Below, piece by piece: positions 29,068-47,417 of a stretch of 47,540 bases of DNA. Numbering within the stretch: position 1 is the first letter of the stretch; the number at the start of each line of letters is the position of its first letter. The stretch lies in NCBI GenBank assembly GCA_007122335.1, contig SKTZ01000094.1:1-47540 (forward strand). Reading direction: 5' to 3'. Below the pieces are notes generated by a model. That model did not search any database. It had not been told where the DNA came from and saw nothing but the letters and a program-made list of their open reading frames with translations. Position numbers and translations under genes: made by a program. This stretch comes from Bacillota bacterium (lineage in GTDB: Bacteria > Bacillota > Halanaerobiia > B1SED10-174).

Positions 29068-32000
29068 TTTTCCCCACCCCCGGATGTCCCCCAGGAATAA
29101 TAGGTCGGGATATCGGTAAATAAAATTCCCAGTTCTTTTACCTTTTCGCCGGTTAACTTTTCCCAGTAGCGGGAATACATTTCTACCTGGGGTTTGTAAT
29201 AACCAATTAATTCCTGCAAGTGCTGGTCATCTTCAGCTACGTCACTTTTGTAATCCACAATTACCCATTCTCCCTTTTCCCGGAAAAGAAGATCAGCAGT
29301 TCCCGTAAGGTAAAGATCTTCATCCCGGAAACCAAAATTGCCTTCCCTGATTTCTTTTTCTGCCTCCCTGACCCTTGCCCAGACTGGAGATTCCATAACT
29401 TTCTGCAGCTGGGCTCGAACCAGGTCAAGCTGGTTGGGGTCAAGCTGTTCCTCCTTAATCAACTGGAGCAAAAACCCATTGGGCGGAAGTTTAAAACCCT
29501 CGATTTTTTCCAGGGCCCTGTGAATTACATTGCCCCAGGCCGTTCCCCGTCCTTTTTCCCGGGCTCTTGGGGGGTACTGGCGATATTCGGCAATACCGGT
29601 TACGGTATCCCGCCGGTAGGAAGGCCTGGTAACTGCTTTGATTTTCTGATCCCGCAGGTTATAAAACTTTTGTCTCTGCAAAGATTTAATTTCTTCCTTT
29701 TTATCCATTTCAGGGGGTGAAAATTCTTTTTCCTCCAGTTCCCTGGCCCCAACAAAGTAAGAATTCAAGGGATACCAGAAACTCTTTTTCTCGTTCCCCC
29801 GGTATATTGAAACAATCAACAGGTCCCGGGCCCGTGTCGCAGCAACATAAAGGAGCCTTTTGCTTTCCGCCGCAAGGTATTTCCCTTCTTCATCCTGATA
29901 GTACTCCCAATCAGGTGGCAGACCAACTACTCCCCGTTCGTCCTTTATCTCCAGGTACCCCCGGGCCTGATTCCCCGCCCGGGTGACGTGGAATTCAGGA
30001 GGAAAAGAAGGATCATGCACCGGATTGGCCAGAAATACCACCGGGGCTTCGAGTCCTTTTGCTTTATGCAGGTTCATTAACCTGACCCCAACAAGCCCTC
30101 CCTCGGGATCCAGTTCCTCCTCCACCTGACCCTGGAGCAGCTCATCAATGAAATCCACGTTGCTGGCAAAATCGGTAGCCCCTCTTTTTTCTCTCTCCTG
30201 GACCAGTTCCAGGGCCTGTAAAATGTAGCCTGCCCGGCTGCGGCCCAGGGGTGCGGAAAGGGCCAGGGGAATTGCCCCCAGTTCTTCGACAATCCTGGAC
30301 ATCGCTGCTACAGGAGAAAGATCCCGGGTAAACTGGCGAAAACTCTGTAATCTCTCCCAGGCTTCCTTTAGTTTTTCTCCTGTTTCCGGGGGAAGTTCGG
30401 ATAAAAACGAAAACCGCCCCCCTGCTGATTTCACCCGGTAAAGTTCTTCATCGCTTACCCCGAAGTAAATCCCCCGCAGGGCTGCAAGGAGAGGAACGGG
30501 ATTATTGGGATCCAGAATTGCTTTAAAAACCTGGTTTAATTCGACTAGTTCTCGACAGGACCCTATTTCTGCTCCTCCGCTCAGGGAAAAAGGAAGGCCC
30601 GCCTGTTCCAGCGCTCGAGCATAAAAAGGCATGTACTTTTTATAGGGAATTATTATGAGAAAGTCCTCGGGCCGGGCATTTCGCTTTTGGCTGGAAATGT
30701 ATAAATCTCCCTGGGTTGCCCTGCCGATAAAGGAAGCTATCCGCTCGGCCTCCTGGCTGCAGATAACGTCAGCCCGGTTGTAAGGTACTTTTTCGGTTGC
30801 CAGAATCCGGACTCCATTTTCCATTCCCCGAGAAGGAACATTGAAATAGTCCATTTTCCCGTATTCTGCCTGGTATGGAGGGGCTTCCCGGCCTAAAAGG
30901 TCATGAAAAGCTCCATTTGCCCATTCCACAAGGCTTTTAGCCGAACGGAAATTGGTTGAAAGCCGCAGGACTTCCCCGCCCGAATTTTCCACCTGATCTT
31001 TAACCCGGGTGTAGATATCGATATCCGCCCGTCGAAAACGGTAGATAGATTGTTTGGGGTCCCCCACAATGAACAGGGCTCCCGGCCTGGGCTTAAGAGC
31101 TGTCCAGTTTTTCTCCTCCGGATTATCTCCTGTCAGGTACATTACGATTTCTGCCTGCAGGGGGTCAGTATCCTGAAATTCATCAACCAGCAGGTGGGTA
31201 TATTTCTCCTGAAAATACCCCCTTACCTCGGGATTTTCCCGCAGAAGCCTGACAGTTTCCAAAAGGAGGTCCTGGTAATTAAGGAGATTCTCCCGGCGCT
31301 TTAGGTCACTGTAATGGTTTTCTGCTCCCTGCAAAAACTCAATAATTGGCAGATGGCAGTAGCGGTACCAGGCCTGGAGGGTGGGAGTTATAATACTTTC
31401 CCGGAACTGTTCTTCGGTTGCCCGGGCTTCCCGCCCGACCTCATTGGAAGGCCAGCGCTTTAAAACAACCTGGGGGGAAGAACCCATCCTGCGGAGAAGC
31501 CTCGTTAAAATCCGGTTTCCTTCCAGGGAAAACCGGTCTCTCCACCTTAAACCCATCCGAACTCTCTGCTGCAGTCCATCCCAACCATCGTTCGGCTCTT
31601 CATAAGGAAGGAATTTTTCCATTTTCTCCAGGTAACGGTACATTTCTGCCCGGCTTTTATCCAGCAATTCACCGGGATAAGCAACATTTCTGGTAACCAG
31701 TTCAACTTCGGGGAACCTGGTTACCAGGTTAAAATTATTTTCCAATTCCCCCGGTTTAATATCCAGCTTATCCAGCCGATCCAGTGTTCCCCTGTTTTCA
31801 GCCTGCAGGTAAAGTAAATACCTGTCCCAGGCCCGGGAAATTATCCTGCGGTCATCTTCTTCATCGAGTTCAGTAAAACCCGGATCCAGGCCCGCTTCAA
31901 CGGGCCTTTCTCGTAAAATCATTGCGCAAAAAGAGTGAATGGTTCCGACAAAAGCATGTTCAATATCTTCCAGGGCTCTTGCCGCCAGGTCCGACCCGGG

Positions 32001-32258
32001 CCCTGATCTTTCTTCAAGGGCTTTTTCCAGGCCTTCCTGAAAGCGTTCCCGGAGCTCCCCAGCCGCCTTCCGGGTAAAGGTTACTGCGGCAATTTCACCT
32101 GCAGAAGCCCGGCCAGAGGTAATTATTGCGACCATTCTATCAATGAGGCTGGAGGTTTTTCCCGAACCAGCTCCGGCTTCTACCAGGAAGGATCTGTCCA
32201 GTTCAGCTGTTATTCTTTTCCTTGCCTTCTGATCGGGAAGGTTATTAATCATAATCAT
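29064..32258 (-). CDS. addA: AddA-type helicase-nuclease subunit
   Basis: The 1064-residue protein is a UvrD/RecB-like superfamily 1 helicase with a C-terminal nuclease. Walker A is GAGSGKTSS (residues 29-37), motif II is LLVDEFQDTDPLQAE, other helicase motifs are FIVGDPKQSIYRFRRAD and LSTNFRSAKSLVEWAN, and the late motif LMNLHKAKGLEAPVVFLAN is motif V. Near the C terminus GTADLLFREKGEWVIVDYKSD is the RecB-type PD-(D/E)xK nuclease site. With AddB it processes double-strand DNA ends for recombination. The gene overlaps addB by 14 bases and the methylase gene by four. The ATG at 32258 follows GGAAGGAG. Confidence 0.93.
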   Translation of the reverse strand: MIMINNLPDQKARKRITAELDRSFLVEAGAGSGKTSSLIDRMVAIITSGRASAGEIAAVTFTRKAAGELRERFQEGLEKALEERSGPGSDLAARALEDIEHAFVGTIHSFCAMILRERPVEAGLDPGFTELDEEDDRRIISRAWDRYLLYLQAENRGTLDRLDKLDIKPGELENNFNLVTRFPEVELVTRNVAYPGELLDKSRAEMYRYLEKMEKFLPYEEPNDGWDGLQQRVRMGLRWRDRFSLEGNRILTRLLRRMGSSPQVVLKRWPSNEVGREARATEEQFRESIITPTLQAWYRYCHLPIIEFLQGAENHYSDLKRRENLLNYQDLLLETVRLLRENPEVRGYFQEKYTHLLVDEFQDTDPLQAEIVMYLTGDNPEEKNWTALKPRPGALFIVGDPKQSIYRFRRADIDIYTRVKDQVENSGGEVLRLSTNFRSAKSLVEWANGAFHDLLGREAPPYQAEYGKMDYFNVPSRGMENGVRILATEKVPYNRADVICSQEAERIASFIGRATQGDLYISSQKRNARPEDFLIIIPYKKYMPFYARALEQAGLPFSLSGGAEIGSCRELVELNQVFKAILDPNNPVPLLAALRGIYFGVSDEELYRVKSAGGRFSFLSELPPETGEKLKEAWERLQSFRQFTRDLSPVAAMSRIVEELGAIPLALSAPLGRSRAGYILQALELVQEREKRGATDFASNVDFIDELLQGQVEEELDPEGGLVGVRLMNLHKAKGLEAPVVFLANPVHDPSFPPEFHVTRAGNQARGYLEIKDERGVVGLPPDWEYYQDEEGKYLAAESKRLLYVAATRARDLLIVSIYRGNEKKSFWYPLNSYFVGARELEEKEFSPPEMDKKEEIKSLQRQKFYNLRDQKIKAVTRPSYRRDTVTGIAEYRQYPPRAREKGRGTAWGNVIHRALEKIEGFKLPPNGFLLQLIKEEQLDPNQLDLVRAQLQKVMESPVWARVREAEKEIREGNFGFRDEDLYLTGTADLLFREKGEWVIVDYKSDVAEDDQHLQELIGYYKPQVEMYSRYWEKLTGEKVKELGILFTDIPTYYSWGTSGGGEK

Positions 32259-35214
32259 TCAGCTCCTTCCAGGATCGTAGCTGTTCGGTGGCTCCTTCTT
32301 CCAGCTTGGCCTTAATCCTCTCCCCGCTCTCAGGGTATCGGCAGATGCTGGGATAATCGCAGAACCTGCAGTGTTCCTTCTGGTGGGTAACTGGAAAGGT
32401 GCCTCCTTCAATCAAGCTAACCATTTTATCCAGAATTTCTACCAATTCTTCCTGGCGGAAAGACCAATCAACCTCCTGCCCTTCTCCCCTTTCAGAGGGG
32501 AATAGATAGCCGGCTCTTTCTACCCTAAGCCCTTCTTTATTAAATTTTTCCTGTAAAAATTTTTCTGCTGCCCGGGCGTACAGGGCAGGCTGAATCTGGC
32601 GGCCTCCCGCCCAGATCTGGTTGCGAGAATAGCGGGATGCTCCTCCGGTCTTATAATCCCAGACCCTGAATATATTTTCGTTCCGGTGGCGGTCAATCCG
32701 GTCAATTCGCCCCCCAACACTAATTTCTTTCCCTTCCGGTAGTTTGATAACAAGGGGGTCTGCAAAGCCCCACCCGGCTTCCGCAACTGCTTCGTTTCCC
32801 AGCCCAAAGGGAACTTCCACGTACAGGGGTTCATAATCCTGGACCTGCTGGTTTAACATTTTCCAGAAAACCCTCAAGCCCTGGATTAACTCCCTCTCTT
32901 CTACCAGGTAAACATGTTCATGGGGGGGAGGTAATATTTTCCTCATTTCTTTTAAACTTCTCTCTCCCATTTCTTTTAATCGTTCCCAGGTCATTCCCTC
33001 TGCAGGTATGCTCGCTATATAATCCCGGTACAGGTCGTGCAGTAACGAACCCCGGGTCAGGGGATCGAGCCAGGTCAGGGGATCATATTCAACCTCTTCC
33101 GGAGGGCTAATCCGCAAAATGCTCTCCAGGAAAAATTTAAAAGGACAGGTGCCCATTGTTTCCAGGCGGGTTGCGGAATATCTTGCAGGTAAATCTTCTC
33201 GGGCCAGAGAAATTTTTCCCTCAAAATGCCCCAGCGGGAGGTCCGTTTTTTGCCGGAGATTTTCCGCATTCAATCCATTTTTAATACCTTCGAATATTTC
33301 TTCAACCTGTTTTTCTTCACCCCGGAACCCTTCCCGGAGGACCCGTTTTAACCACCATTCATCTCCGCTTAAGCCGGTAGTATCAACTCCCGGGGAGTAG
33401 GCTTTAATATCAGGTAGGGAGGCCAGAAATTCAGTATAGTCTGCCCGGAGATTTCCGGACTTTTTGCGGTAAACCTGCAGTAAAAAAGCAGCTGGAAAAC
33501 CACTCCTGCCCTGACCGGGGTCAAAACGTTCAAAACTAAAACCCGAAAACCCTCCACGGGAGGCCAGAAGGCGAGCCAGACGGTACTGTTTTTTTTCCGG
33601 GTCATTCTTCCGCAGACCCAATCTCCCGCTGATTTTCTCCCTCTCCCTGTCCAGAAGAAGCGGGTCTTCTCTTCTGCGTCCGGGGAAGCGATCGGAATCC
33701 ATTCCCAGCACAATTGTATGGGGTCGTTCCGACCACTGTCCCCAGCGGTAATGGGTGGCATGAGCTGCTCCTGGTTCAGTCCGGGAGGCGCCGATGTTTA
33801 ACTGCAGGATCCCCCTGCGCAGACGGGAATAAGTTTCCGCAGTCGATAACGTTAAAACCGAGGACTGGATGAACCTCTCCATCCTGTTTTCAATTGCTTC
33901 CAGGGCCAGAGCATCCATCGGGCTCGAAATTTTACAAATCAAGGGGAAAAAATCTCGAATTTCCTGTCCCAGCTTACTGAGGGTAATTGCATCGTTTTCC
34001 CGGGGATCAGTAAAAATATTTGTTAATTCTCGGGCTAATTCCAGTAAATGCTGGGTCCTGTTAAGATCTTCTCCACCTGATATTTCTCCTGCAAGCTTTT
34101 CCAGGGCCCGCAGATACCAGTCCTTTCCCCAGCCAATTGCTGCTTTCCTGAATAATCGGCCATAAGCCTGGGAATTATCAAGATCCAGGTCGCCTGAGGT
34201 AAGGATTCTGTAAAACAGGGGCCCGGGGTAGCCATTCTCTGCCCACTGGACCAGGTTTAAAAGCAGCCTTCCGGGTCGGGTATATGCAGCGGGAAGCCCT
34301 TCCCCCAGGGTCAGGGGAATATCCAGTTTGCGGGCTTCATTCCATAGCAGGGGAATATATTTTTCTGCGCTGGTATAACAGAACTGAACACTATCCAGGG
34401 GAATTTCCTTTTTCAGAAGTTCCCGCAGCCAGCCCCTTACTTCATTTGTTGCACCGTAGGCCGGGCTAATCCCGGTATCCAGTTTGGCTTGCTGATTATT
34501 TTCAGCAGAAAAAAGGAAGGAAAAACTTCCCTCTGGTTCACCTTTCTCTTCGGGGTAGAAAAATCCCTGAGGCCTTTTTATCCCTGCCAGGCTGTTCCCC
34601 TGCAATCTTAAAATCCTTTGCTGTGGCAGGCTCTGCAAAAATTCTTTTTCCAGGGGCAATACTTCCAGATCTTCGGGAACCAGAAAAAGACTGGAAGCTA
34701 TTTCTTCCCCGTCCATTTTAGCCATTGCTCTCCTTAATATTGAAGCATCATCAAGCCCCTTTTTTTGTTCCAGTTTTGCAAGGTAGCCCCGGAAAATTTG
34801 GTTCAGTTCTTTTCCCTTTGCGGGATCAACAAACTTATCCGGTTTCAGATTTTCTGGAACTATTCCGCTCATTCTCAATTCCCTAATCACCGGAAAAACC
34901 AGCGGACCCAGGCTTTCTCTCTCGTGTAAAGTTAAAAAATATTTTAAATCACCCTGCATGTGCAATTCCAGCAGGGTCTCCTCAATTATTCCCTCCAGCT
35001 CCCCTGGAGTCAAAATTATTTTGCCCTCCTCAATTAGCTCAACTTCAACCAGGTGCCTTGCCAGCGAAGAAGAAGTTACAACTTCAACATTGACCCAGGG
35101 CTGTTTTTGGGCAAGGCTTTCCAGGATTTGATAACCAAGAATAAGTCGGGGGACAATTAAATACTTTTTGGTCAAATTATTTTCCCGCAAAATTTTTACA
35201 AGGCTGTTTTCCAT
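32245..35214 (-). CDS. addB: AddB/RexB-type nuclease subunit with an iron-sulfur cluster
   Basis: The 989-residue protein is an AddB-like partner of AddA. No Walker A motif is found at the N terminus (MENSLVKILRENNLTKKY), as in RexB, so the helicase fold is probably inactive. The C-terminal part carries the iron-staple nuclease: one cysteine in LETMGTCPFKFFLES and three more in HCRFCDYPSICRY, the four ligands of the [4Fe-4S] cluster in AddB, surrounding GGRIDRIDRH and VWDYKTGG (PD-(D/E)xK). The first gene of the addB-addA-methylase group. Its ribosome binding site is GGGGAGGGAAGAGG. The promoter may be upstream through the micropeptide operon terminator at 35302. Confidence 0.9.
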   Translation of the reverse strand: MENSLVKILRENNLTKKYLIVPRLILGYQILESLAQKQPWVNVEVVTSSSLARHLVEVELIEEGKIILTPGELEGIIEETLLELHMQGDLKYFLTLHERESLGPLVFPVIRELRMSGIVPENLKPDKFVDPAKGKELNQIFRGYLAKLEQKKGLDDASILRRAMAKMDGEEIASSLFLVPEDLEVLPLEKEFLQSLPQQRILRLQGNSLAGIKRPQGFFYPEEKGEPEGSFSFLFSAENNQQAKLDTGISPAYGATNEVRGWLRELLKKEIPLDSVQFCYTSAEKYIPLLWNEARKLDIPLTLGEGLPAAYTRPGRLLLNLVQWAENGYPGPLFYRILTSGDLDLDNSQAYGRLFRKAAIGWGKDWYLRALEKLAGEISGGEDLNRTQHLLELARELTNIFTDPRENDAITLSKLGQEIRDFFPLICKISSPMDALALEAIENRMERFIQSSVLTLSTAETYSRLRRGILQLNIGASRTEPGAAHATHYRWGQWSERPHTIVLGMDSDRFPGRRREDPLLLDREREKISGRLGLRKNDPEKKQYRLARLLASRGGFSGFSFERFDPGQGRSGFPAAFLLQVYRKKSGNLRADYTEFLASLPDIKAYSPGVDTTGLSGDEWWLKRVLREGFRGEEKQVEEIFEGIKNGLNAENLRQKTDLPLGHFEGKISLAREDLPARYSATRLETMGTCPFKFFLESILRISPPEEVEYDPLTWLDPLTRGSLLHDLYRDYIASIPAEGMTWERLKEMGERSLKEMRKILPPPHEHVYLVEERELIQGLRVFWKMLNQQVQDYEPLYVEVPFGLGNEAVAEAGWGFADPLVIKLPEGKEISVGGRIDRIDRHRNENIFRVWDYKTGGASRYSRNQIWAGGRQIQPALYARAAEKFLQEKFNKEGLRVERAGYLFPSERGEGQEVDWSFRQEELVEILDKMVSLIEGGTFPVTHQKEHCRFCDYPSICRYPESGERIKAKLEEGATEQLRSWKELNDYD

Positions 35215-35301
35215 TTTGCCTCTTCCCTCCCCGGGGAAATCTTTTCCATATATTAATTTTTTCTTCTTTAATCTGTTTTCTCCTCCCGGGGAAAGGATGC
35301 G

Positions 35302-35345
35302 AAAAAAATAAAGGTCCTGTTCCTTTTTCTCAGGACAGGACCTTT
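35302..35345 (-). terminator. Strong terminator of the micropeptide operon
   Basis: On the minus strand AAAGGTCCTGT (35345-35335) pairs perfectly with ACAGGACCTTT (35320-35310), 11 bp, and a T-rich run ATTTTTTT follows. It is 28 bases beyond the third micropeptide stop codon and 88 bases before addB. Readthrough here would feed addB. Confidence 0.93.
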
Positions 35346-35373
35346 CAGTTAATTAATTTAGTTGTATTAGTGC

Positions 35374-35439
35374 TTACCATTGGAGAACACGGGTTAGATT
35401 TTTACCCATTTCCCATTTTTGGTTTTTTCTTTTAACCAT
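35374..35439 (-). CDS. Micropeptide 3 (21 residues)
   Basis: The third reading frame of the micropeptide operon begins at an ATG (35439-35437) that overlaps the stop codon of micropeptide 2 (TAATG), with AGGAGG nine bases upstream, so it should be translationally coupled. It begins MVKRKNQKW, ends TRVLQW and has two tryptophans and six basic residues against one acidic (about +5). There is no signal peptide. No function is recognised. It is too short to fold alone, and could bind nucleic acid, a partner protein or a membrane, or could act in cis by translation itself. Confidence 0.7.
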   Translation of the reverse strand: MVKRKNQKWEMGKNLTRVLQW

Positions 35440-35507
35440 TATTTTTGCCTCCTTTGTTTGCGGTTTATCATTTCCTGATATTTCATTTTTCCGAGTAGGG
35501 TTTCCAT
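35439..35507 (-). CDS. Micropeptide 2 (22 residues)
   Basis: Second frame of the operon. A strong GGGAGGTG ribosome binding site lies six bases before the ATG. The peptide starts METLLGKMKYQEM and ends NRKQRRQK, with seven basic and two acidic residues (about +5) concentrated at the C-terminal end. Its stop codon overlaps the next start (TAATG). I recognise no family. The clustered basic tail resembles that of micropeptide 1. Confidence 0.7.
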   Translation of the reverse strand: METLLGKMKYQEMINRKQRRQK

Positions 35508-35536
35508 TTTTTCACCTCCCTTGAAATTTTCTTTTC

Positions 35537-35617
35537 TTACTTGCGGCTTCTCTTGCGGGACTTGATTTTCTCAGCGTGAATGTAAGTTGCGCTGAAGGCC
35601 ATGCTCTGATCAAACAT
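35537..35617 (-). CDS. Micropeptide 1 (26 residues)
   Basis: First frame of the operon, with ribosome binding site AAAGGGGGT seven bases before the ATG at 35617 and about 50 bases after the likely transcription start. The peptide begins MFDQSMAFSATYIHAEKIK and ends SRKRSRK, net about +5. The basic tail could bind RNA or ribosome, and the front half is amphipathic. No family is recognised. Independent ribosome binding sites for all three peptides plus a perfect promoter and terminator make chance occurrence unlikely. Confidence 0.72.
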   Translation of the reverse strand: MFDQSMAFSATYIHAEKIKSRKRSRK

Positions 35618-35674
35618 TTTGTTACCCCCTTTCTTTTTAAAACCTTTTAATTAATTTTTTTAATTTCTAACTTA

Positions 35675-35703
35675 ATTATATTCATCCTGATATGCTTTGT
35701 CAA
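35675..35703 (-). promoter_or_regulatory. Perfect consensus promoter of the micropeptide operon
   Basis: On the minus strand TTGACA (35703-35698) and TATAAT (35680-35675) match the sigma-A consensus exactly with the optimal 17-base spacer. Upstream is a very A/T-rich stretch (35704-35768) that may act as an UP element for this and the divergent promoter. Confidence 0.92.
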
Positions 35704-35768
35704 CCCCTAAATTGAAAAAATTAATATTTTTTTGAAAAAAATTAAAAATTTATATTTTTTTATTTGAT

Positions 35769-35797
35769 TTGACAATAAAATTCTTCCATGTTATTAT
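35769..35797 (+). promoter_or_regulatory. Promoter of the alpha/beta hydrolase gene
   Basis: TTGACA (35769-35774) and TATTAT (35792-35797) are separated by 17 bases, with TGT before the -10 (extended -10). It is divergent from the micropeptide promoter. Confidence 0.88.
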
Positions 35798-35798
35798 G

Positions 35799-35812
35799 TG
35801 ACTAAATAGTCA
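35799..35812 (+). promoter_or_regulatory. Probable repressor operator (14-bp perfect dyad)
   Basis: TGACTAAATAGTCA is a perfect palindrome placed over the expected transcription start, one base beyond the -10 element. The size, symmetry and position match operators of TetR-family or similar dimeric repressors. The cognate regulator gene is not in the window. Confidence 0.7.
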
Positions 35813-35829
35813 TATTAAGGAGTGATCAG

Positions 35830-36717
35830 ATGCATTCATTTCTCGATAGAGTTACCGTTAAAAGCACTGCCCTGGTTCTGGGTAAAAAGAAATTTTTCCG
35901 CAGTTCTATTGGCTCACCAGGCTACAGGACTCTGCTTGAAGAAGCGGAGTTGGAAATGCCGTCCATTAAGAAAGAAGGAATCTATGAACTCAAAGCAAAT
36001 AATTCTGCAGCTTTATTGGATCCTGCTTTTGACCTGGTCCAGTGGAAAGGAGATCATTTTCCAACCATAATCTATCATCACGGGAATAACGAGAAGCCTT
36101 TTAAATATAAAGCCTGGGAGAAAAATTCTTTCTACAAGATTTTCAATCCCCAGAAGGGAGAGCTGGAGGTTAACCTATTCAACCTCAGAGCTCCTTTCCA
36201 CCAGTCATTTAACCTTTACCTGGAAAAGATCGCGGATTTAAATCAGTTCCTATCTATGCTAACCACTTCCACCAGGTTAATCCAGGAGTTGGTTGATTTT
36301 TCCCGGGAAAAAGGAAGCTCTCATATTATGGTATGCGGGATCAGTCTTGGAGCCTGGGTTGCCAACCTGCACCGGGCTTTCTACAACAGTGCAGATTCCT
36401 ACGTTCCCCTTTTAGGTGGTCCCAAGCCTGCCGATATTTTCCTGGATTCAAGTTATGCCCAGCTCGTTGACCCATCTGTTTTCAACCACCGGGAAGAAAT
36501 TGAAAAAAGACTTAACTTTACTGAAGAGTTTTCCAGCCACCAGGAGAAAAATATCTTTCCCCTGCTGGCCCTTTATGATCAATTTATCCGTTACGATGTA
36601 CAAAAAGATGCCTATAAACCCCATTCTGTGGCAGCTATTTACCGGGGACACACTACCGGTTTTCTTGCGGGAAAGGCTTTGCGGGAACATGTTGAAAAAA
36701 TTCTTACCAGGGGCTAA
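35830..36717 (+). CDS. Alpha/beta hydrolase
   Basis: The 295-residue soluble protein has the alpha/beta hydrolase oxyanion stretch IIYHHGNN (residues about 79-86), the nucleophile elbow GISLGA (Ser in GxSxG) and a late catalytic histidine in IYRGHTTGF. Its closest-feeling relatives are the large, poorly characterised ABHD18-like hydrolases, but the substrate is not predictable. The ATG follows AAGGAG seven bases away and no signal peptide is present. Its promoter carries a dimeric repressor operator, so it is likely induced by a small ligand. It is monocistronic as far as can be seen; no strong terminator follows before the aro promoter. Confidence 0.85.
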   Translation: MHSFLDRVTVKSTALVLGKKKFFRSSIGSPGYRTLLEEAELEMPSIKKEGIYELKANNSAALLDPAFDLVQWKGDHFPTIIYHHGNNEKPFKYKAWEKNSFYKIFNPQKGELEVNLFNLRAPFHQSFNLYLEKIADLNQFLSMLTTSTRLIQELVDFSREKGSSHIMVCGISLGAWVANLHRAFYNSADSYVPLLGGPKPADIFLDSSYAQLVDPSVFNHREEIEKRLNFTEEFSSHQEKNIFPLLALYDQFIRYDVQKDAYKPHSVAAIYRGHTTGFLAGKALREHVEKILTRG

Positions 36718-36781
36718 AAAGGACTAGCTTGATTTTACCAGGTTTTGGACATTGAAAATATTTTATATTTATCATTTTACC

Positions 36782-36810
36782 TTGACAGCGCTTTAAAGTG
36801 CGATTATAAT
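36782..36810 (+). promoter_or_regulatory. Perfect consensus promoter of the aro operon
   Basis: TTGACA (36782-36787) and TATAAT (36805-36810) match consensus exactly with a 17-base spacer. The spacer itself contains the imperfect dyad GCGCTTTAAAGTGC (36788-36801), which could be an additional operator. Confidence 0.93.
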
Positions 36811-36841
36811 AAAAACAATATTATTTTAAAGGAGTTTTATC

Positions 36842-36913
36842 ATGTTTGCATTTTCCTCTGGGTTTTCCGGGTACTATTATTCCTATTATTTCTATCCCAA
36901 GAAAAGGGAATAA
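36842..36913 (+). CDS. Phe/Tyr-rich leader peptide of the aro operon
   Basis: A 23-residue peptide with AAAGGAG ribosome binding site nine bases before the ATG. It begins MFAFSSGFSG and continues YYYSYYFYPKKRE. Six Tyr (positions 11, 12, 13, 15, 16, 18) and four Phe (2, 4, 8, 17) make 10 of 23 residues aromatic. No Trp is present. The cluster of Tyr codons spans 36872-36895, so a ribosome starved for charged tRNA-Tyr or tRNA-Phe would stall there. Downstream lie a competing hairpin and a strong terminator before aroH. The organisation is that of attenuator leader peptides (pheL, hisL, trpL) known from proteobacteria. Confidence 0.88.
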   Translation: MFAFSSGFSGYYYSYYFYPKKRE

Positions 36914-36917
36914 TTTA

Positions 36918-36992
36918 GGCTGGAAAAATTTAGAGGGAAGGTATCCCAAGATTAAATTTACTGCAAGCTCCGGTACCTGCCGGAGCTTTTTT
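36918..36992 (+). promoter_or_regulatory. Attenuator: alternative hairpin and intrinsic terminator
   Basis: The terminator is a nine-bp stem AAGCTCCGG (36965-36973) with CCGGAGCTT (36980-36988), its T-run completing at 36992. Just upstream AAATTTA (36926-36932) pairs with TAAATTT (36953-36959), enclosing GGGA/TCCC. This hairpin can be extended by GGCT (36918-36921) with AGCT (36966-36969), which overlaps the terminator's left arm and would prevent it. A ribosome at the leader stop codon (36911-36913) would cover GGCT and permit termination, whereas one stalled at the Tyr codons would leave it free. The pairing is my inference from reading, not from energy calculation. Confidence 0.75.
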
Positions 36993-37066
36993 ATTTTATC
37001 CTGGTTAAAAACCCGCCTGTTTTAAGAAATTCTTAAGAAAAAATCCAAAAAGAAAGGAGTTCCTTT

Positions 37067-37432
37067 TTGATGATCTGCGGTATTAGAGGTGCAACTACGG
37101 TTGATAAAGATGAGAAAATAGAAATCATAACGGCTGTTAAAGAATTATTAAAAACGATTCTAACCAAAAACAACATTACTTCCTCTCAGGTAATTGCGGT
37201 CTTTTTTACAAATACCCCTGATCTCCAGTCAGTTTTTCCAGCTTCCGCAGCACGTGCTTTGGGCTGGATCGATGTTCCTCTTTTAGATGGACAACAACCC
37301 ATAGTAGAGGGTAGCCTCAAACAATGTATCAGGGTTATGCTTTTATGCGAGAAAGAAACCCCGGGTAAAGTGAAACACATCTACCTCAAAAAAGCCCGAG
37401 AACTCAGACCTGATCTTTTAGAAAATTCTTAA
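37067..37432 (+). CDS. aroH: Chorismate mutase, AroH type
   Basis: The 121-residue protein begins MMICGIRGATTVDKDEK, the hallmark N terminus of the monofunctional AroH class (B. subtilis MMIRGIRGATT), and later has VFFTNTPDLQSVFPA and GWIDVPLLDGQQPIVEGSLKQC read in parts. It rearranges chorismate to prephenate, the first step towards Phe and Tyr, in the cytoplasm as a homotrimer. The Arg of the family's MIRG is Cys here (MICG), while the second Arg, in GIRG, is kept. Translation may begin at the TTG at 37067 or the ATG at 37070, both within range of AAAGGAG. The first structural gene behind the leader/attenuator. Confidence 0.94.
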   Translation: MMICGIRGATTVDKDEKIEIITAVKELLKTILTKNNITSSQVIAVFFTNTPDLQSVFPASAARALGWIDVPLLDGQQPIVEGSLKQCIRVMLLCEKETPGKVKHIYLKKARELRPDLLENS

Positions 37433-37499
37433 ACCCCTTTGGAAATTCAGGAATTTGATGTTGTCAATTTTAAAACAACTAAATTTAGGAGGGATTGAA

Positions 37500-38567
37500 A
37501 TGATTGTAGTAATGAAGGCAAAAGCAAGTGAAACCGAATTTAAAAAGGTTATTGAGAGAATTAAGCAAGAAAACCTGGACGTCCACATTTCAAAGGGAAA
37601 AGAAGTGAGAATAATTGGGGTTGTGGGAGATGTAAGGCGTATTGAACCAGAAGTTCTCCAGGCTTTTGATGGGGTTGAAAGGGTTATCCGGATTCTCCAT
37701 CCTTTCAAATTGGCAAGCCGGGATTTCAAACCAGAAAATACCACGATAAATGTGGACGGAGTTATTATCGGGGGAGGGAAATTTATTGTTTCAGCAGGAC
37801 CCTGCGCTGTAGAGGGAGAGGAAATGCTTACAGAGGTTGCCTTCCTGGCCAAAAAATGCGGAGCATCAATACTCAGAGGAGGTATTTTCAAGCCAAGAAC
37901 TTCTCCTTACTCCTTCCAGGGATTGGGTTTAGACGGTCTCGAGATTTTACAAAGGGTAAAAGAAAAGACCGGTTTACCTATTATAACCGAGATTATGAGC
38001 CCGGAGCATGTAGGATTAATTTCCCAGTACGTCGACATCTTTCAAATAGGAGCAAGAAATATGCAGAATTTCCCCCTGCTCCAGGCGGTGGGGCGGACGG
38101 AAAAACCTGTCTTGTTGAAACGAGGCCTGATGGCCTCTGGAGAAGAGTGGCTGCAGGCTGCAGAATACGTGTTATCAGAGGGTAATCCTAACGTTATTCT
38201 CTGCGAGCGGGGCATAAGGACTTTCGAAGGCTACACCAGAAACACACTGGACTTGAGTATAGTACCTGTTATTAAAAAGCTCAGCCACCTACCGGTATTT
38301 GTAGATCCAAGTCACGGAACGGGCCACTGGGATCTTGTTACACCAATGGCCATGGGTGCTCTCGCAGTGGGGGCAGATGGGATTATGGTAGAAGTTCATC
38401 CCAACCCGGAAAAGGCATTTTCTGACGGCCCCCAATCTCTTAAACCAAAGGTCTTTGCAGAGATGATGCAACAGCTTGCCAAAGCAGCCGAGGCCTTCAA
38501 TCGGCCCCTTCCTTTTAGTTCAGAAAGAATTACCATTCCAGGTAATGAGACGCAAAAAGGTTCTTAA
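37500..38567 (+). CDS. aroF: 3-deoxy-7-phosphoheptulonate synthase (DAHP synthase)
   Basis: The 355-residue enzyme condenses phosphoenolpyruvate and erythrose-4-phosphate, the committed shikimate step. Residues 1-65 form the small ferredoxin-like regulatory domain seen in Thermotoga-type enzymes, which makes it a candidate for feedback by Tyr or Phe. The barrel carries GPCAVEGEEML, RGGIFKPRTSPYSFQGLG, FVDPSHGTGHW and VEVHPNPEKAFSDGPQSL. The ATG at 37500 immediately follows GGAGGG. An upstream in-frame ATG at 37455 lacks a ribosome binding site. It is followed by tyrA after two bases. Confidence 0.96.
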   Translation: MIVVMKAKASETEFKKVIERIKQENLDVHISKGKEVRIIGVVGDVRRIEPEVLQAFDGVERVIRILHPFKLASRDFKPENTTINVDGVIIGGGKFIVSAGPCAVEGEEMLTEVAFLAKKCGASILRGGIFKPRTSPYSFQGLGLDGLEILQRVKEKTGLPIITEIMSPEHVGLISQYVDIFQIGARNMQNFPLLQAVGRTEKPVLLKRGLMASGEEWLQAAEYVLSEGNPNVILCERGIRTFEGYTRNTLDLSIVPVIKKLSHLPVFVDPSHGTGHWDLVTPMAMGALAVGADGIMVEVHPNPEKAFSDGPQSLKPKVFAEMMQQLAKAAEAFNRPLPFSSERITIPGNETQKGS

Positions 38568-38569
38568 TT

Positions 38570-39442
38570 ATGAAACCAATTAGTGTTGGTGTGGTTGGGC
38601 TTGGTTGCATAGGCGCTTCCCTGGCCTGGGAATTAAAAAGGAAAAATTTTTGCCGGGAGGTCCTGGGCCATGATTTACAAAGTTCTTCCATGGATTTTGC
38701 CCTGGAAAAACAGATTATTGACCGTGCTGTTTCCCTGGAAAAGTGTGCCCGGGATTCTGATCTGGTTATTCTAGCAGTTCCAGTCCTGCAAATTCCCCTG
38801 GTAGCAGAATCCCTTATGCCCCATTTAAAATCAAACTCTTTACTAACCGATGTGGGCAGTGCCAAAGACCGGGTTGTAAAAAAAATAAAGGGGCTACTCC
38901 GTGCTGATATTACCTTTATAGGAGGCCACCCCATGGCGGGATCAGAAAAATCAGGGGTCCAAGCAGCAAAACCGGCCCTCTTTTCCGGCGCCCCATATTT
39001 TCTGACACCGGTCAAACCTATCAATGAACAGGCCCTGAACCTGCTCATAGATTTAATCAAAACCCTGGGAGCAAACCCCTTTTTGGTAACGCCGGAAGAA
39101 CATGACGCCATCGTAGCCCGGATAAGTCACCTTCCCTATCTGGTTTCAGCCGCCCTTGTTTTATCCTGCGGTGATGATTCTCGAACAACAGGTTTTGCCG
39201 CCGGGGGTTTTCGGGATACCACGAGAATTGCTTCTTCAGATCCCATTATGGGAAAAGATTTTTGCGTCGCCAATCGCAAGGAGATTATCCGGGCAGCAGA
39301 AAAATTTATTTCAGAAATTCAGGATATAATTGGCAGGCTTTCCCGCGGGGACTCTATAGAAGAAAAATTGCGGGCAGCCAGGTCCCTGAGAGATACCATT
39401 GCCGCCCAAAAAAGATGGGAGAGTGACTTCAATGGAAAATAG
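38570..39442 (+). CDS. tyrA: Prephenate dehydrogenase
   Basis: The 290-residue protein has an N-terminal Rossmann dinucleotide fold (VVGLGCIGASLAWELK, residues about 8-23), DVGSAKDRV and the GGHPMAGSEKSG motif that marks prephenate/arogenate dehydrogenases, followed by the helical dimerisation half. It oxidatively decarboxylates prephenate to 4-hydroxyphenylpyruvate, the Tyr branch. No C-terminal ACT domain is present at this length, so allosteric inhibition by tyrosine is less likely than in longer TyrA forms. It overlaps the aroA gene by 11 bases. Confidence 0.95.
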   Translation: MKPISVGVVGLGCIGASLAWELKRKNFCREVLGHDLQSSSMDFALEKQIIDRAVSLEKCARDSDLVILAVPVLQIPLVAESLMPHLKSNSLLTDVGSAKDRVVKKIKGLLRADITFIGGHPMAGSEKSGVQAAKPALFSGAPYFLTPVKPINEQALNLLIDLIKTLGANPFLVTPEEHDAIVARISHLPYLVSAALVLSCGDDSRTTGFAAGGFRDTTRIASSDPIMGKDFCVANRKEIIRAAEKFISEIQDIIGRLSRGDSIEEKLRAARSLRDTIAAQKRWESDFNGK

Positions 39443-40766
39443 GGTAATAAGTCCTGGTGGAGCGTTGAGGGGAACCCTCAAAACCCCCGGAGACAAATCC
39501 ATATCACACAGATCAGCAATACTGAGTGCACTGGCAAAGCCTTCATCCCCGGTTATTCTATCCAACTATTCTACCGGAAACGACTGTCAAAAAACTCTTC
39601 AATGCCTCAGGGCATTGGGCGTTAAAATTTACACGAGGAAGAAAACATCTCCTTCAACAGTAAAAATTACCCCACCAGGTTTGCAAAACCTAAAAGAGCC
39701 AAAAAATATCCTTAATTGTGGGAATTCCGGCACTACCATGCGTCTCCTCTGCGGGGTCCTTTCCTCCCTTCCTTTTTATTCGGTTTTAACAGGGGACCAA
39801 TCACTCCGGGAAAGGCCAATGGACCGGGTAACAGACCCCCTAAAAAAGATGGGGGCTGAAATCTTTGGCAGACAGGGAGGCAAATTCCCTCCCCTCAGTA
39901 TTACAGGGGGCAACCTATCTGCCATAGAACATCAGAGCAATGTTCCCAGCGCTCAGGTAAAATCCGCTATTCTGCTGGCAGGCCTTTCTGCTGAGGGCGA
40001 AACCTGGGTTTCGGAAAACTCTCCCTCGCGGGATCACACGGAGCGAATGCTTTTTCATTTTGGAGTTGAAATCCTAAATTTCTCCCCTGGGGTTAAACCC
40101 CGGGGACACCTGAGGGTAGGAGTAAGAGGTGGGAGTATTCCGGAGGCCAGGTCAATGGAAATCCCCGGGGACATATCATCTGCCGCCTTTTTTATGGCCG
40201 GGGCTTTAATTCTAGAAAATTCAGAGCTCACAATTCAAGGAGTTGGGCTCAATTCCACACGAACTGGCTTCCTGGAAGTAATCAAAAAAATGGGGGCCCA
40301 ATATGACATCCTTTCCTTCCAGGAAGAAGGGGAGCCCAGAGGTGATATCCGGATCAAATATCAGCCCCTACAACCGTTTTCTGTTGGTGGAAGCATGGTT
40401 CCTACTCTAATTGATGAAATACCCATAATGGCGGTTCTCGCCACCCAGGCCCATGGGGTTAGTACAATTAAAGATGCCCAGGAGTTGCGGATAAAAGAAA
40501 GTGACAGATTGAAAGCTATTTCCGAAAACCTGAAAGCCATGGGGGCCAATATAGAAGAAAAACATGATGGACTCATTATCGAAGGCCCTACAAGGTTAAG
40601 GGGGACAGTTCTCAATTCTTTTGGTGATCATCGTATTGCAATGGCCATGGCCATTGCCTCCCTGGTAGCAGAAGGAGACTCTTTGCTCAAGGGGGCAGCA
40701 TGCGCATCCATTTCTTTTCCCGGTTTCTATGAAAAACTGGAAGAACTCCGTCCAGGTAGAAGGTGA
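39432..40766 (+). CDS. aroA: 5-enolpyruvylshikimate-3-phosphate synthase
   Basis: The 444-residue EPSP synthase transfers enolpyruvate from PEP to shikimate-3-phosphate. Visible motifs are PGDKSISHRSAILSALA, LNCGNSGTTMRLLCG, RERPMDRVTDPLKKMGA, the central IKESDRLKAI and SFGDHRIAMAMAIA. The ATG at 39432 lies inside the tyrA 3' end after GGGAGA. An in-frame ATG at 39399 has no ribosome binding site. The LNCGNSGTTMRL segment has a Gly and Thr pattern of the class II-like type, but glyphosate sensitivity cannot be read reliably from this alone. Confidence 0.96.
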   Translation: MENRVISPGGALRGTLKTPGDKSISHRSAILSALAKPSSPVILSNYSTGNDCQKTLQCLRALGVKIYTRKKTSPSTVKITPPGLQNLKEPKNILNCGNSGTTMRLLCGVLSSLPFYSVLTGDQSLRERPMDRVTDPLKKMGAEIFGRQGGKFPPLSITGGNLSAIEHQSNVPSAQVKSAILLAGLSAEGETWVSENSPSRDHTERMLFHFGVEILNFSPGVKPRGHLRVGVRGGSIPEARSMEIPGDISSAAFFMAGALILENSELTIQGVGLNSTRTGFLEVIKKMGAQYDILSFQEEGEPRGDIRIKYQPLQPFSVGGSMVPTLIDEIPIMAVLATQAHGVSTIKDAQELRIKESDRLKAISENLKAMGANIEEKHDGLIIEGPTRLRGTVLNSFGDHRIAMAMAIASLVAEGDSLLKGAACASISFPGFYEKLEELRPGRR

Positions 40767-40771
40767 TAAAA

Positions 40772-41665
40772 TTGCAACAGTTAAAAAATCCGACCGGGCT
40801 CTTTTGCCTTATTGGCAACCCGATTAACCAGAGCCTCTCCCCCTCGATACAAAATTCCGCCCTTGCTTTCCACGGGATTGACGCCCGCTACATGGCCTTT
40901 AATGTACCCCCGGAATCTCTCAAGGAAGCTATAATTGGTTTGAAAGCCCTGGGGGTTTTGGGAATAAATGTTACCATACCTCATAAAACAAATGTTATCC
41001 CCCTTCTGGATGGCTTAAGTGAAGAAGCGGCCAATATCTCTGCCGTAAACACAATTAAAATAGCAGACGGGACTCCATCTAGGTTTATTGGTTATAATAC
41101 AGATGGCCCCGCCCTGATTAAAGCATTGGAAAGTGACGCAGATTTTAATCCCAGGGGAGCAAAAGTCTTTTGTGTAGGGGCAGGGGGATCTGCCCGGGCC
41201 TGCCTTTTTGCCCTCGCAAAAGCAGGAATTGAAAGCTTAACAATATACAACCGAACAAAAATAAACGCCATCGCTTTGCTTCAGCACCTCCAGTCCCATT
41301 TTCCCCGGTTAAAAACCAATTTAATTTGCCCCAAGCCAGGGTTTTGGGATCCGGGACTGGTTTGTTTGTTTGAAAAGGAAGCACCCGACCTGATTCTCAA
41401 TACAACTCCCCTCCGACAATGGACCGGGAATCTGCCTTTCTTTTCTCATCAGGTGGTATGCGACCTGGTTTACTCCCCTTATCCAAGCATAACTCCCATG
41501 CTATCACTGGCTTTGGAAGGTGGAGCTAAACCTGTAACAGGTTTGTCAGTTCTGGTGCATCAGGGGGCTTTGGCCTTCTCACTTTGGACAGGTCATAACC
41601 CCCCTGTTGAGGCAATGTGGCAGGCTTTGCGCGGAGAAAAAGGAGGAAATGATAATGACACTTGA
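40772..41665 (+). CDS. aroE: Shikimate dehydrogenase
   Basis: The 297-residue enzyme reduces 3-dehydroshikimate with NADPH. N-terminal substrate residues are in GNPINQSLSPSIQN and INVTIPHKT (catalytic Lys), NTDGPAL holds the Asp, and GAGGSARACLFALAKAG is the nucleotide-binding loop with NRTK following. The ribosome binding site AGAAGG overlaps the aroA stop, and the best start is TTG at 40772; a GTG at 40763 overlaps the binding site. The gene overlaps aroC by 11 bases. Confidence 0.95.
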   Translation: MQQLKNPTGLFCLIGNPINQSLSPSIQNSALAFHGIDARYMAFNVPPESLKEAIIGLKALGVLGINVTIPHKTNVIPLLDGLSEEAANISAVNTIKIADGTPSRFIGYNTDGPALIKALESDADFNPRGAKVFCVGAGGSARACLFALAKAGIESLTIYNRTKINAIALLQHLQSHFPRLKTNLICPKPGFWDPGLVCLFEKEAPDLILNTTPLRQWTGNLPFFSHQVVCDLVYSPYPSITPMLSLALEGGAKPVTGLSVLVHQGALAFSLWTGHNPPVEAMWQALRGEKGGNDNDT

Positions 41666-42800
41666 CTTTAAAACTGCGGGAGAATCCCATGGACCTGCCG
41701 TAACAGCCCTCGTTGAAGGGCTTCCAGCGGGTCTTAAAATAAATTCTGATGATATAAATCGCGACCTTGCCCGCAGACAATTCGGATACGGCAGGGGCGG
41801 CCGGATGAAAATTGAAAAAGACAGGGTGGATATTCTCTCGGGAGTAAGAGACGGAAAGTCCATCGGCAGCCCCATTGCCCTCCTGATCAAGAACAAAGAT
41901 CACAGGACTCATAAGGAAGAAATTCTAACCAAACCCCGCCCGGGGCATGCCGACCTGGCGGGGGCAATGAAATTCGGTTTCAGTGATATGCGGGATGTTC
42001 TTGAAAGAGCCAGTGCTAGAGAAACTGCCGCTCGTTGTGCTGCAGGAGCACTTGCCAAAATATTCTTAAGGGAGTTTTCCATAGAAATTGTATCTTTTGT
42101 CCTGGAAATCGGTGGAGTAAGAGGTAGTGTTGACAGCTTATCTCCCTGGACTGCTATGGCCCTTGCTGAAGATTCTCCAGTTCGATGTCCCGATAAACAG
42201 GCCACAGTTAAAATGGTGGAAGCCATTGAAGAAGCCTCTTTGAATGGTGATACCCTCGGTGGTAGCTTCGAGATTCGGGCCTTAAATGTTCCACCCGGAC
42301 TGGGTTCTTATACTTCCTGGGATAAAAAACTTGACGGCAGAATGGCCCAAATATTAATGTCAATTAACGGGATAAAAGGGGTTGAAGTTGGATTCGGGTT
42401 CAGATGTGCTTCCCTCCCCGGGTCTTCAATTCACGATCCCATTAAATCCTTTGATACCCCCCCGGAAAGGGGCCCCCGTTACCACCGTTCGACCAACAGG
42501 GCAGGCGGTTTCGAAGGGGGTGTAACTAATGGAGAAGAATTGGTACTCAGGGTAGCCATGAAACCAATCGCGACTCTACGGAAACCCCTCCTCTCCGTGG
42601 ATTTATCCACGGGGAAGGCTATTGAAGCACAGTATGAACGTTCTGATATTTGTGCTGTTCCGGCTGCATCTATCGTTGGTGAAACAGCAGTAGCTTTTGT
42701 CCTGGCCCAGGCTGTCCTGGAAAAATTTGGTGGAGATAACATTTCTGATACCTTTGACGCATATGAAGCTTACCTGCAAAGGCTGGCAAAAGAATTCTAG
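41655..42800 (+). CDS. aroC: Chorismate synthase
   Basis: The 381-residue enzyme makes chorismate from EPSP using reduced FMN. Motifs in order: TAGESHGPAVTALVEG, RRQFGYGRGGRMKIE, RPGHADLAGAMKFG, RASARETAARCAAG and, late, RHRST-like YHRSTNRAGGFEGG. The start ATG at 41655 is eight bases after AGGAGG; an ATG at 41649 is too close. It is FMN-dependent only, with no flavin reductase domain, so reduced flavin must come from elsewhere, as in other anaerobes. Confidence 0.96.
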   Translation: MTLDFKTAGESHGPAVTALVEGLPAGLKINSDDINRDLARRQFGYGRGGRMKIEKDRVDILSGVRDGKSIGSPIALLIKNKDHRTHKEEILTKPRPGHADLAGAMKFGFSDMRDVLERASARETAARCAAGALAKIFLREFSIEIVSFVLEIGGVRGSVDSLSPWTAMALAEDSPVRCPDKQATVKMVEAIEEASLNGDTLGGSFEIRALNVPPGLGSYTSWDKKLDGRMAQILMSINGIKGVEVGFGFRCASLPGSSIHDPIKSFDTPPERGPRYHRSTNRAGGFEGGVTNGEELVLRVAMKPIATLRKPLLSVDLSTGKAIEAQYERSDICAVPAASIVGETAVAFVLAQAVLEKFGGDNISDTFDAYEAYLQRLAKEF

Positions 42801-42818
42801 AACAAAAAGGAGTCAATT

Positions 42819-44423
42819 ATGGGGAATATATATATCACGGGTTTTATGGCAGCAGGCAAAAGTTCTCTAGGGCTCATTCTCAGTGAAAAACTAGGCTGGG
42901 AGAATGTTGACCTGGATAATCTTATTGAAAAAAACAGCGGTCTTTCCATTGCGGAAATATTTAAAGAACAGGGAGAAGAAGGGTTCCGCAAATTAGAATG
43001 TCGAGCCCTTTACAGGGTTGCCTCCCAACACGGGCTTATTGTAACAACAGGTGGTGGAACTGTCCTTTCTTCAGAGAATCGTTCCCTGATGAAAAGAACA
43101 GGAATAATTATTGCTCTGGGTGTTTCTCTTAAAGAAGCTGTAAAAAGGGCAAATCAAGACGGTGGCCTTGATAAAAGACCAATCTTAAAAAGGATGGAAA
43201 CTGCTTATTCTTTCAGACAAGACCTCTACCGGGAGGCCGATTTCTTCATCGAAACTGATAATAAAGCTCCGGGGACAGTTGCTGAAGAGGTCACGAAATA
43301 TATAAAGGCTTCTTTTTCCTTTCCTCTGGTGAGGGTCACTGCAGGAAAAGAAGCTTATAGTGTATTAATCAAACCAACTTCTCTTGGAGATCTTGGAGAA
43401 AGTCTTTTTAAACTGGGAGCCCGGAATTCGGTGGTCATCTTCTCGGACACCAATGTCTGGCCTCTTTACCAGGAACCTCTCAAAGAGTCTCTTAAAAGCG
43501 CTGGATTAAGCTATTTAAACTGGAATGTCTTTCCTTCAGAAAAAAACAAATCCCTTAACAGTGCCCGGCAGGCTTACGATTTTCTTGTAGAGGCCGGAAT
43601 AACAAGGGATACCTTTGCCATTGCCTTTGGAGGTGGGCTGGTCGGTGACCTGGGAGGATTTATCGCAGCTACCTATATGAGAGGGATCCCTTTTGTCCAG
43701 GTTCCTACTTCCCTCCTGGCTCAGGTTGATGCTGGAATAGGTGGGAAGGTTGCCGTAAACCACCCCCGGGGTAAAAACCTAATAGGCACTTTTTATCAAC
43801 CTGCCGGTTGCCTTATGGATCCCCTCCTTTTACGTTCTCTTCCCGAACGAAATTTCAAAGAAGGTCTCGCCGAAGTGATAAAATATGCTCTTCTTACTGG
43901 TGGAGAAATGGTCCAGACTTTGGAGAAAAATAAAACTGAAATTTTTCAGAAAGATCCCCGGGTTTTAAGCGACGTTATTCATCAATGCTGCAAAACCAAA
44001 GCCAATTATGTTATGGGTGACGAGAAAGATTTCGGTATCCGCCGCCACCTCAATTTGGGGCATACCCTGGGGCACGCCCTGGAAACTTTAACCGGATATG
44101 ATTTCCTTTACCACGGGGAAGCAGTCTCCATTGGGTTGGTTTGGGCCGCCTTTCTCTCAGAATTGTTAGGAGTAGCGGAAAAAGGCCTCACAGAATATAT
44201 TAAAGATTTACTTTCTTTTTATCATCTGCCAACTTCTCTTCCCCGGCTTGTTAAAGGAAAAATATCTTCCCGCGAGCAACTTCTCAATACTATGATGCTG
44301 GATAAAAAAGCGGATAAAGCCAGCTTGAACTGCATCCTTATTGCCCAACCTGGTAAGATAATGGTTCAGGGGAATATTCCTAACGCAGTATTAATGGAGG
44401 CCTTTTCGGTGATTGGCCTCTAA
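42819..44423 (+). CDS. aroKB: Fused shikimate kinase and 3-dehydroquinate synthase
   Basis: The 534-residue protein joins two enzymes. Residues 1-170 are shikimate kinase: TGFMAAGKSSLG (Walker A), LDNLIEKNSGLSIAEIF and RKLECRAL, then TTGGGTVLS. Residues about 175-534 are 3-dehydroquinate synthase: AIAFGGGLVGDLGGFIAATY (NAD and substrate loop), VPTSLLAQVDAGIGGKVAVNH, EVIKYALL (metal Glu), and the zinc histidines in HLNLGHTLGHALE and LYHGEAVSIG. The two catalyse non-consecutive steps, ring closure of DAHP to dehydroquinate and phosphorylation of shikimate. The ATG follows AAAAAGGAG. AroKB fusions are known from Thermotoga and some Bacillota. Confidence 0.95.
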   Translation: MGNIYITGFMAAGKSSLGLILSEKLGWENVDLDNLIEKNSGLSIAEIFKEQGEEGFRKLECRALYRVASQHGLIVTTGGGTVLSSENRSLMKRTGIIIALGVSLKEAVKRANQDGGLDKRPILKRMETAYSFRQDLYREADFFIETDNKAPGTVAEEVTKYIKASFSFPLVRVTAGKEAYSVLIKPTSLGDLGESLFKLGARNSVVIFSDTNVWPLYQEPLKESLKSAGLSYLNWNVFPSEKNKSLNSARQAYDFLVEAGITRDTFAIAFGGGLVGDLGGFIAATYMRGIPFVQVPTSLLAQVDAGIGGKVAVNHPRGKNLIGTFYQPAGCLMDPLLLRSLPERNFKEGLAEVIKYALLTGGEMVQTLEKNKTEIFQKDPRVLSDVIHQCCKTKANYVMGDEKDFGIRRHLNLGHTLGHALETLTGYDFLYHGEAVSIGLVWAAFLSELLGVAEKGLTEYIKDLLSFYHLPTSLPRLVKGKISSREQLLNTMMLDKKADKASLNCILIAQPGKIMVQGNIPNAVLMEAFSVIGL

Positions 44424-44443
44424 AAAAGAAAGGAGAATCTGCA

Positions 44444-44887: not shown

Positions 44888-45065
44888 AACATCAATTCGA
44901 AATAAAAAGAAAAAACCCTTTTTGACCCAGAATAAAAACTGGCCAAAAATGGTTTTCAAAGGATTTAAACCTCTGATAAAAGGATCATTAAAATCTCAAT
45001 TTAATTTGAGGGCTTCAGGGAAACAAATCCAAAAAATTCTATCCTTGATTTTTTTGCAAAGGGTT

Positions 45066-47105: not shown

Positions 47106-47188
47106 AATTATTTTTTTATTTTCGCCATGGGAAAAATACCCTTAAAATTCATCTTAATCTCTCCATCTATCAAATTTCCGGGGATGTA

Positions 47189-47217
47189 AGTTTAAACAAA
47201 TTTCTTGCTTTAATCAA
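47189..47217 (-). promoter_or_regulatory. Candidate promoter of the subtilase gene
   Basis: On the minus strand TTGATT (47217-47212) and TAAACT (47194-47189) are separated by 17 bases, about 60 bases before the probable start codon. The remaining interval up to 47417 holds no supported gene or strong hairpin. Confidence 0.5.
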
Positions 47218-47417
47218 GCAACTTCTTAAATGTTATTATTCACCCCATCGCACTATTTCCCTTTATATGCTTAAAATAACTTCCATTTCCTTTTTTGGCT
47301 ACACGAAAAGGGGGAAACCCTTCTCAGCAATGGGGCCCGTGGAATTCCCACAAATTTTATTTTCTACTGGGTTTTCCATTTTCCTGGTTCAATTCCCGCT
47401 TCTTTCCCTTGGCAGAT

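Follow-up and report, generated by a model that had tools for sequence, protein, structure and literature searches.

A candidate tyrosine-sensing leader-peptide attenuator upstream of a complete shikimate operon in a T-box-rich Bacillota-type genome

Leader-peptide attenuation of aromatic biosynthesis is usually assigned to the Proteobacteria and Actinobacteria, and control by T-boxes or TRAP to the Bacillota. The E. coli trp and phe attenuators (trpL and pheL; Phe_leader, RF01859) share with the leader described here a run of codons for the product residue, the 1:2, 2:3 and 3:4 hairpins and an intrinsic terminator; the present leader differs in that tyrosine would be its main sensed residue, its host is of Bacillota type and one leader would serve the whole shikimate pathway, and its sequence is unrelated to Phe_leader (15 bits, E = 7.8, against a gathering cut-off of 55 bits). 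Within the Firmicutes, His leader-peptide attenuators are known that are likewise ribosome-mediated and replace T-boxes, but they carry His codons, precede his genes and occur in the B. cereus group, Peptostreptococcaceae and Erysipelotrichales (PMC2965389, PMC9413887); transfer of a his operon together with its attenuator has also been proposed (PMC9413887). The S. aureus ilv-leu operon is a further Bacillota biosynthetic operon preceded by a leader peptide and terminator; its leucine-rich attenuator peptide, for which there is mutant evidence, differs in sensing leucine and in serving a branched-chain operon (PMC5794164). The tyrosine operon of the B. cereus group is under T-box control (PMC2494555). 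Since His and Leu leaders are already published in Bacillota, the mechanism itself is not new there; for an aromatic leader peptide in Bacillota, no paper was found in a search that most subscription journals lay outside.

The window, by which we mean the whole 47,540-nt stretch of DNA that was analysed, contains a 285-nt leader (36782-37066) which, with a probability of roughly 0.85, attenuates transcription by a ribosome-mediated mechanism, with charged tRNA-Tyr as its main signal and a shikimate-to-tyrosine operon as its target. This reading is supported by anatomy, statistics and predicted folding, rather than by conservation or experiment. In particular, all parts lie on the forward strand in an order and with a spacing that are right for an attenuator: a sigma-70 type promoter, TTGACA-17-TATAAT, that matches the consensus at 12 of 12 bases (36782-36810); a Shine-Dalgarno sequence, AAAGGAG (36828-36834), located 7 nt upstream of the ATG; a 23-codon open reading frame (36842-36913, ATG at 36842, TAA at 36911-36913) encoding MFAFSSGFSGYYYSYYFYPKKRE; and, between this frame and the first gene, aroH, an intrinsic terminator. 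The peptide has six Tyr and four Phe codons, and its Tyr run extends over codons 11-18 (36872-36895; residues YYYSYYFY). The terminator stem (36965-36988) has 10 bp and a folding energy of -17.2 kcal/mol; its left arm occupies 36965-36974, its right arm and T-rich tail 36979-36999, where the arm leads into TTTTATTTTAT, and TTTTATTTT directly follows the stem. Sequence, translation and folding thus bear out the perfect promoter, the aromatic 23-codon peptide and the strong terminator that an earlier note on this DNA had described. Elsewhere in the window, a second perfect promoter lies upstream of an addB-like gene (35675-35703, reverse strand), and a promoter matching 11 of 12 bases faces a hydrolase-like gene (35769-35797, forward strand).

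The operon downstream consists of the eight genes that the earlier note had named, all of them recovered by NCBIfam models and all on the forward strand: aroH, a monofunctional chorismate mutase (37067-37432; TIGR01796, 130 bits); aroF, a DAHP synthase of the PRK08673 type (37491-38567; NF006421, 499 bits; PDB 1vr6); tyrA, of the prephenate/arogenate dehydrogenase family (38570-39442); aroA, EPSP synthase (39432-40766; TIGR01356, 399 bits); aroE, shikimate dehydrogenase (40763-41665; TIGR00507, 201 bits); aroC, chorismate synthase (41655-42800; TIGR00033, 396 bits); aroKB, a shikimate kinase-dehydroquinate synthase fusion (42819-44423; TIGR01357, 352 bits, with shikimate kinase matches at residues 1-165); and aroQ, a type II dehydroquinase (44444-44887; TIGR01088, 188 bits). 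The tyrA product scores below equivalog cut-offs, including that of its best match (NF005107, 237 bits), yet prephenate/arogenate dehydrogenase models score best by far. As annotated, the operon covers the whole seven-step route to chorismate and adds chorismate mutase and a tyrosine-branch dehydrogenase. Moreover, prephenate dehydratase (PF00800) was not found in the genome that holds the window (G000), while it is present in 14 of 14 control genomes; this points to tyrosine rather than phenylalanine as the operon's product and fits the Tyr-dominated stall region. Phenylalanine in this genome would come from uptake or from an unrecognised enzyme.

The folding calculations show a predicted complete four-strand attenuator. 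When the ribosome is absent, strand 1 (36851-36870), which spans codons Phe4-Gly10 of the reading frame, base-pairs with 36920-36940 to give a long 1:2 hairpin, and the terminator also forms; the region 36840-36962 that includes the 1:2 hairpin has a folding energy of -35.8 kcal/mol. Strand 2 (36919-36940) alternatively provides the left side of an antiterminator: with strand 1 masked, its stretch 36919-36924 pairs with about 36969-36974 around an inner A/U-rich hairpin (36926-36959), and this pairing consumes the left arm of the terminator, of which about 36969-36973 doubles as the right side of the antiterminator. The alternative pairing into the left arm that the earlier note had proposed therefore exists, in a register (GGCT with AGCT) that overlaps the computed one and is not identical to it; the 1:2 hairpin over codons 4-10 had been missed there.

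From these structures, the following sequence of events is proposed. Transcription would start at about 36817-36818, just downstream of the promoter, and the leader peptide would be translated during RNA synthesis. When Tyr-tRNA is plentiful, the ribosome would reach the stop codon and cover about 36911-36923, as the earlier note had also reasoned; the antiterminator could then not form, and the terminator at 36965-36988 would end transcription. When Tyr-tRNA is scarce, the ribosome would halt within YYYSYYFY, masking strand 1 and leaving strand 2 free to pair with the left arm of the terminator before the right arm exists, so that transcription would enter aroH. Without translation, the 1:2 hairpin would form and the terminator would be the default. 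We infer translation of the reading frame, coupling of ribosome and polymerase, and readthrough in vivo; such coupling is disputed for some Bacillota.

A stall-position test gives these states a quantitative form. For each codon at which a ribosome could be halted, the free RNA was folded with its 3′ end placed before the right arm of the terminator (36979), and the probability of the antiterminator was calculated. This probability is about 0.78 to 0.9 for halts at codons 7-14 and 0.6 at Tyr15 (a span of 0.6 to 0.85 for Tyr11-Tyr15), about 0.4 at codons 16-18 and 0.85 at codons 19-22. A halt at Glu23 or at the stop codon brings it to about 0, as does the absence of a ribosome. The pattern is stable when the edge of the ribosome is varied from +9 to +15 nt and the RNA end is shifted by a few bases, although among the shifted ends the values fall once the right arm starts emerging. 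Halts at Phe2 or Phe4 give a probability of 0, indicating that sensing does not extend to the early Phe codons, whereas Phe8 and the Tyr run take part in it. The attenuator logic of the earlier note passes this test, with the qualification that the amino acid sensed would be mainly Tyr, since stalls at Phe2 and Phe4 free no antiterminator. A looser measure, in which pairing of the left arm with anything upstream of it is counted, puts Tyr stalls at 0.75, the stop codon at 0.19 and the ribosome-free RNA at 0.52. Judged by this, the no-ribosome state is less sharply defined than the specific pairs imply; by the same measure, 6 of 400 shuffled spacers show a contrast as great as the observed one.

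With a folding energy of about -11 kcal/mol, G-U pairs included, the antiterminator is a weak structure, and at equilibrium the terminator beats it at every position, which makes the antiterminator dependent on kinetics. An equilibrium fold that always keeps the terminator is also what one would expect if the terminator ended a small constitutive RNA or merely insulated the operon, with the aromatic reading frame a chance occurrence or a small protein, and the leader is common to no relative, which again favours that explanation. We nevertheless consider it unlikely, on three grounds. First, the dependence on stall position resembles that of E. coli trpL (NC_000913), for which the same test yields 0.83 at Trp10/Trp11 and 0 at the stop codon, and in which the terminator likewise wins at equilibrium everywhere; the window leader thus behaves like an experimentally established attenuator, its dependence on kinetics included. 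Second, chance does not readily produce such a frame: of 20,000 dinucleotide shuffles of 36728-37066, none yielded as its best short reading frame (8-60 codons, preceded by a Shine-Dalgarno sequence) one with at least 6 Tyr within 8 codons, and 18 yielded one with at least 7 aromatic residues within 10. The leader is also 4.2 standard deviations stabler than its shuffles (z = -4.2). Third, the promoter scan lists no promoter-like site between the terminator and aroH.

The genome itself (2.41 Mb, 157 contigs, 97.8% complete) is rich in T-boxes, with 13 matches, 10 of them above the cut-off. The genes downstream of these, identified by eye from their first residues and not by family search, include several tRNA synthetases (alaS, serS, proS, metS, valS, glyQS and pheST among them), argG, an aspartokinase and a hisZ-like gene. 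These 13 T-boxes elsewhere in the genome, together with T-boxes near the aro genes of several relatives of the same class (L003, and the motif in L121, L122, L128, L129 and L131), lend some weight to the idea that a T-box or another ligand-binding riboswitch controls the operon and that the short reading frame is incidental. That idea is very unlikely here: the 285-nt leader holds neither a T-box motif nor a match to RF00230 when scanned against Rfam to E = 10, as the earlier note had seen by eye, and the families of Rfam as a whole reach only chance-level scores in it; the frame has a good Shine-Dalgarno sequence, and its Tyr run was never reached by the shuffles. TRAP-type control occurs in Bacillus, so a switch of the leader by TRAP or another RNA-binding protein also has a precedent, but we regard it as extremely improbable for this genome, where the TRAP gene (PF02081) was not found by a search that detected the B. 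subtilis control, and no run of GAG/UAG repeats is visible by eye in the leader. The earlier note had set this leader against the T-box or TRAP control that is normal for aromatic operons of Bacillota, and neither is found here; leader-peptide attenuation itself is not foreign to the phylum, given the His and Leu leaders and the aromatic leaders of Lactobacillaceae described below. With the tyrosine-sensing attenuator as the preferred reading, a T-box-rich Bacillota-type genome would have put an apparently acquired shikimate operon under a Tyr leader peptide.

The evidence for acquisition comes from a sister genome (G004), in which the whole unit of promoter, leader and operon (36705-45046) is missing at the same site by blastn. 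At its locus L266, the counterparts of window positions 28299-36704 and 45047-47538 adjoin about 100 bp apart at 76-86% DNA identity, and the spacer of about 100 bp between the convergent genes carries a terminator-like hairpin instead of the unit. The two genomes thus differ by the entire unit, including the leader, as one block. Contamination was considered as the source of the contig and rejected, as both flanks match the sister genome at this identity. Further, neither a chorismate synthase nor a DAHP synthase of comparable score was found in the five other genomes of the family, several of which are incomplete. The absence at the sister site makes it probable that the operon was acquired, and a gain in G000 is simpler than repeated loss, though loss is possible; the operon would have been acquired with the leader or just before it. 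The unit junctions carry only chance-level direct repeats of 8-10 bp and no target duplication. The contrast between the two genomes offers a clean case of regulation either moving together with a transferred operon or being added to it.

An identical order of the eight genes is found in G041, G332, G331, G310 and six f57 genomes, all from another class of the phylum; the G041 operon is split across two contigs, and some f57 loci stop before aroQ. The AroC tree groups G041 and G332 with the window AroC (96/93 support, on a long branch), and the AroA tree leaves the placement of the window AroA open. A Thermotoga origin was considered, as the nearest PDB DAHP synthases to the aroF product are T. 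maritima-type structures and the aro gene order presumably recalls that of Thermotoga; gene order and the AroC tree indicate another class of the same phylum instead. None of the same-order operons has an aromatic leader peptide or a T-box upstream of aroH. The earlier note had counted homologous operons lacking an aromatic-rich frame against the attenuator, and the nearest same-order operons do lack one; we read this as turnover of leaders rather than absence of function in the window, the leader having come with a closer, unsampled donor or having been built after transfer. Likewise, no homologue of the leader was found in the class loci, the aroKB-fusion operons or the same-order operons of the other class, so that the exact leader has no conservation or covariation to draw on. 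A scan of 399 genomes of the phylum for the Tyr-run leader pattern gave 25 places in 23 genomes and no other aro case; of the matches, those examined further turned out to be starts of coding sequences, to lie out of frame or to have no link to aro genes. By these sequence comparisons, the window leader is a singleton among the genomes compared.

Two of the same-order groups have upstream regions of their own. About 170 nt upstream of aroH, the G041 and G332 loci (L158 and L159) share a conserved A/T-rich stretch with short palindromes and with neither a leader reading frame nor a T-box, possibly a repressor site. A leader common to the f57 loci (L160-L165) lies some 100-550 nt upstream of aroH; GCAGGACGGTAG motifs recur in it, and it carries the terminator GGGCTACCCC..GGGGTAGCCC. 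Pairing is possible between GGTAGGGGAG and CTACCCCTC, and this leader may be another, unknown attenuator. The f57 loci scanned against Rfam (L144-L149) gave no match.

Tyr-rich leader peptides also precede aro operons in Lactobacillaceae. Among the loci fetched for aroF, the Paucilactobacillus genomes each have one leader peptide that ends in NS[FY]YYYWF and precedes aroE-aroF-aroB-aroC-aroA-tyrA-aroK. A scan for the pattern across 401 genomes of the family matched 105, many by chance; from these matches, 34 loci were chosen in which the in-frame translation is a YYYW-type peptide. All 34 have aro genes downstream, often headed by transketolase (tkt), an enzyme that supplies a precursor. An alignment of 33 leaders shows a helix between the Tyr/Trp codons and a CCARTAR strand further downstream, in which 95.5% of cells are paired. 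The choice of TAT or TAC in the Tyr codons is mirrored by the partner base, and the helix has a covariation score of 0.495, compared to 0.243 in shuffles and 0.03 to 0.16 when slid. Aromatic leader-peptide attenuation is therefore native to Bacillota, as this family shows. Its members resemble the window leader in having a Tyr-rich peptide upstream of aro operons, with terminator-like hairpins in those read, but the peptide and RNA structure are unrelated: their Tyr/Trp codons pair directly with the downstream strand and are covarying and widely conserved, whereas the window peptide and structure lack both the [FY]YYYW ending and the Tyr/Trp-codon helix. Five Paucilactobacillus loci scanned against Rfam match no family, and no paper on the [FY]YYYW leader was found in a search outside which most subscription journals lay.

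On balance, it is somewhat more likely than not that Tyr-sensing, ribosome-mediated attenuation of whole shikimate operons has two or more origins within Bacillota: one on the transferred operon of this T-box-rich lineage, and one as a widespread, covariation-supported Lactobacillaceae family that lies outside Rfam as far as tested. If so, Tyr leaders would substitute for T-boxes when an operon moves, and the Lactobacillaceae family would offer a natural tyrosine-responsive switch, testable in common laboratory lactobacilli.

Conserved [FY]YYYW(F) leaders are found before tkt, aroE or aroF operons at L041-L044, L046 and L216-L257, with two terminator-like hairpins downstream in the examples read.
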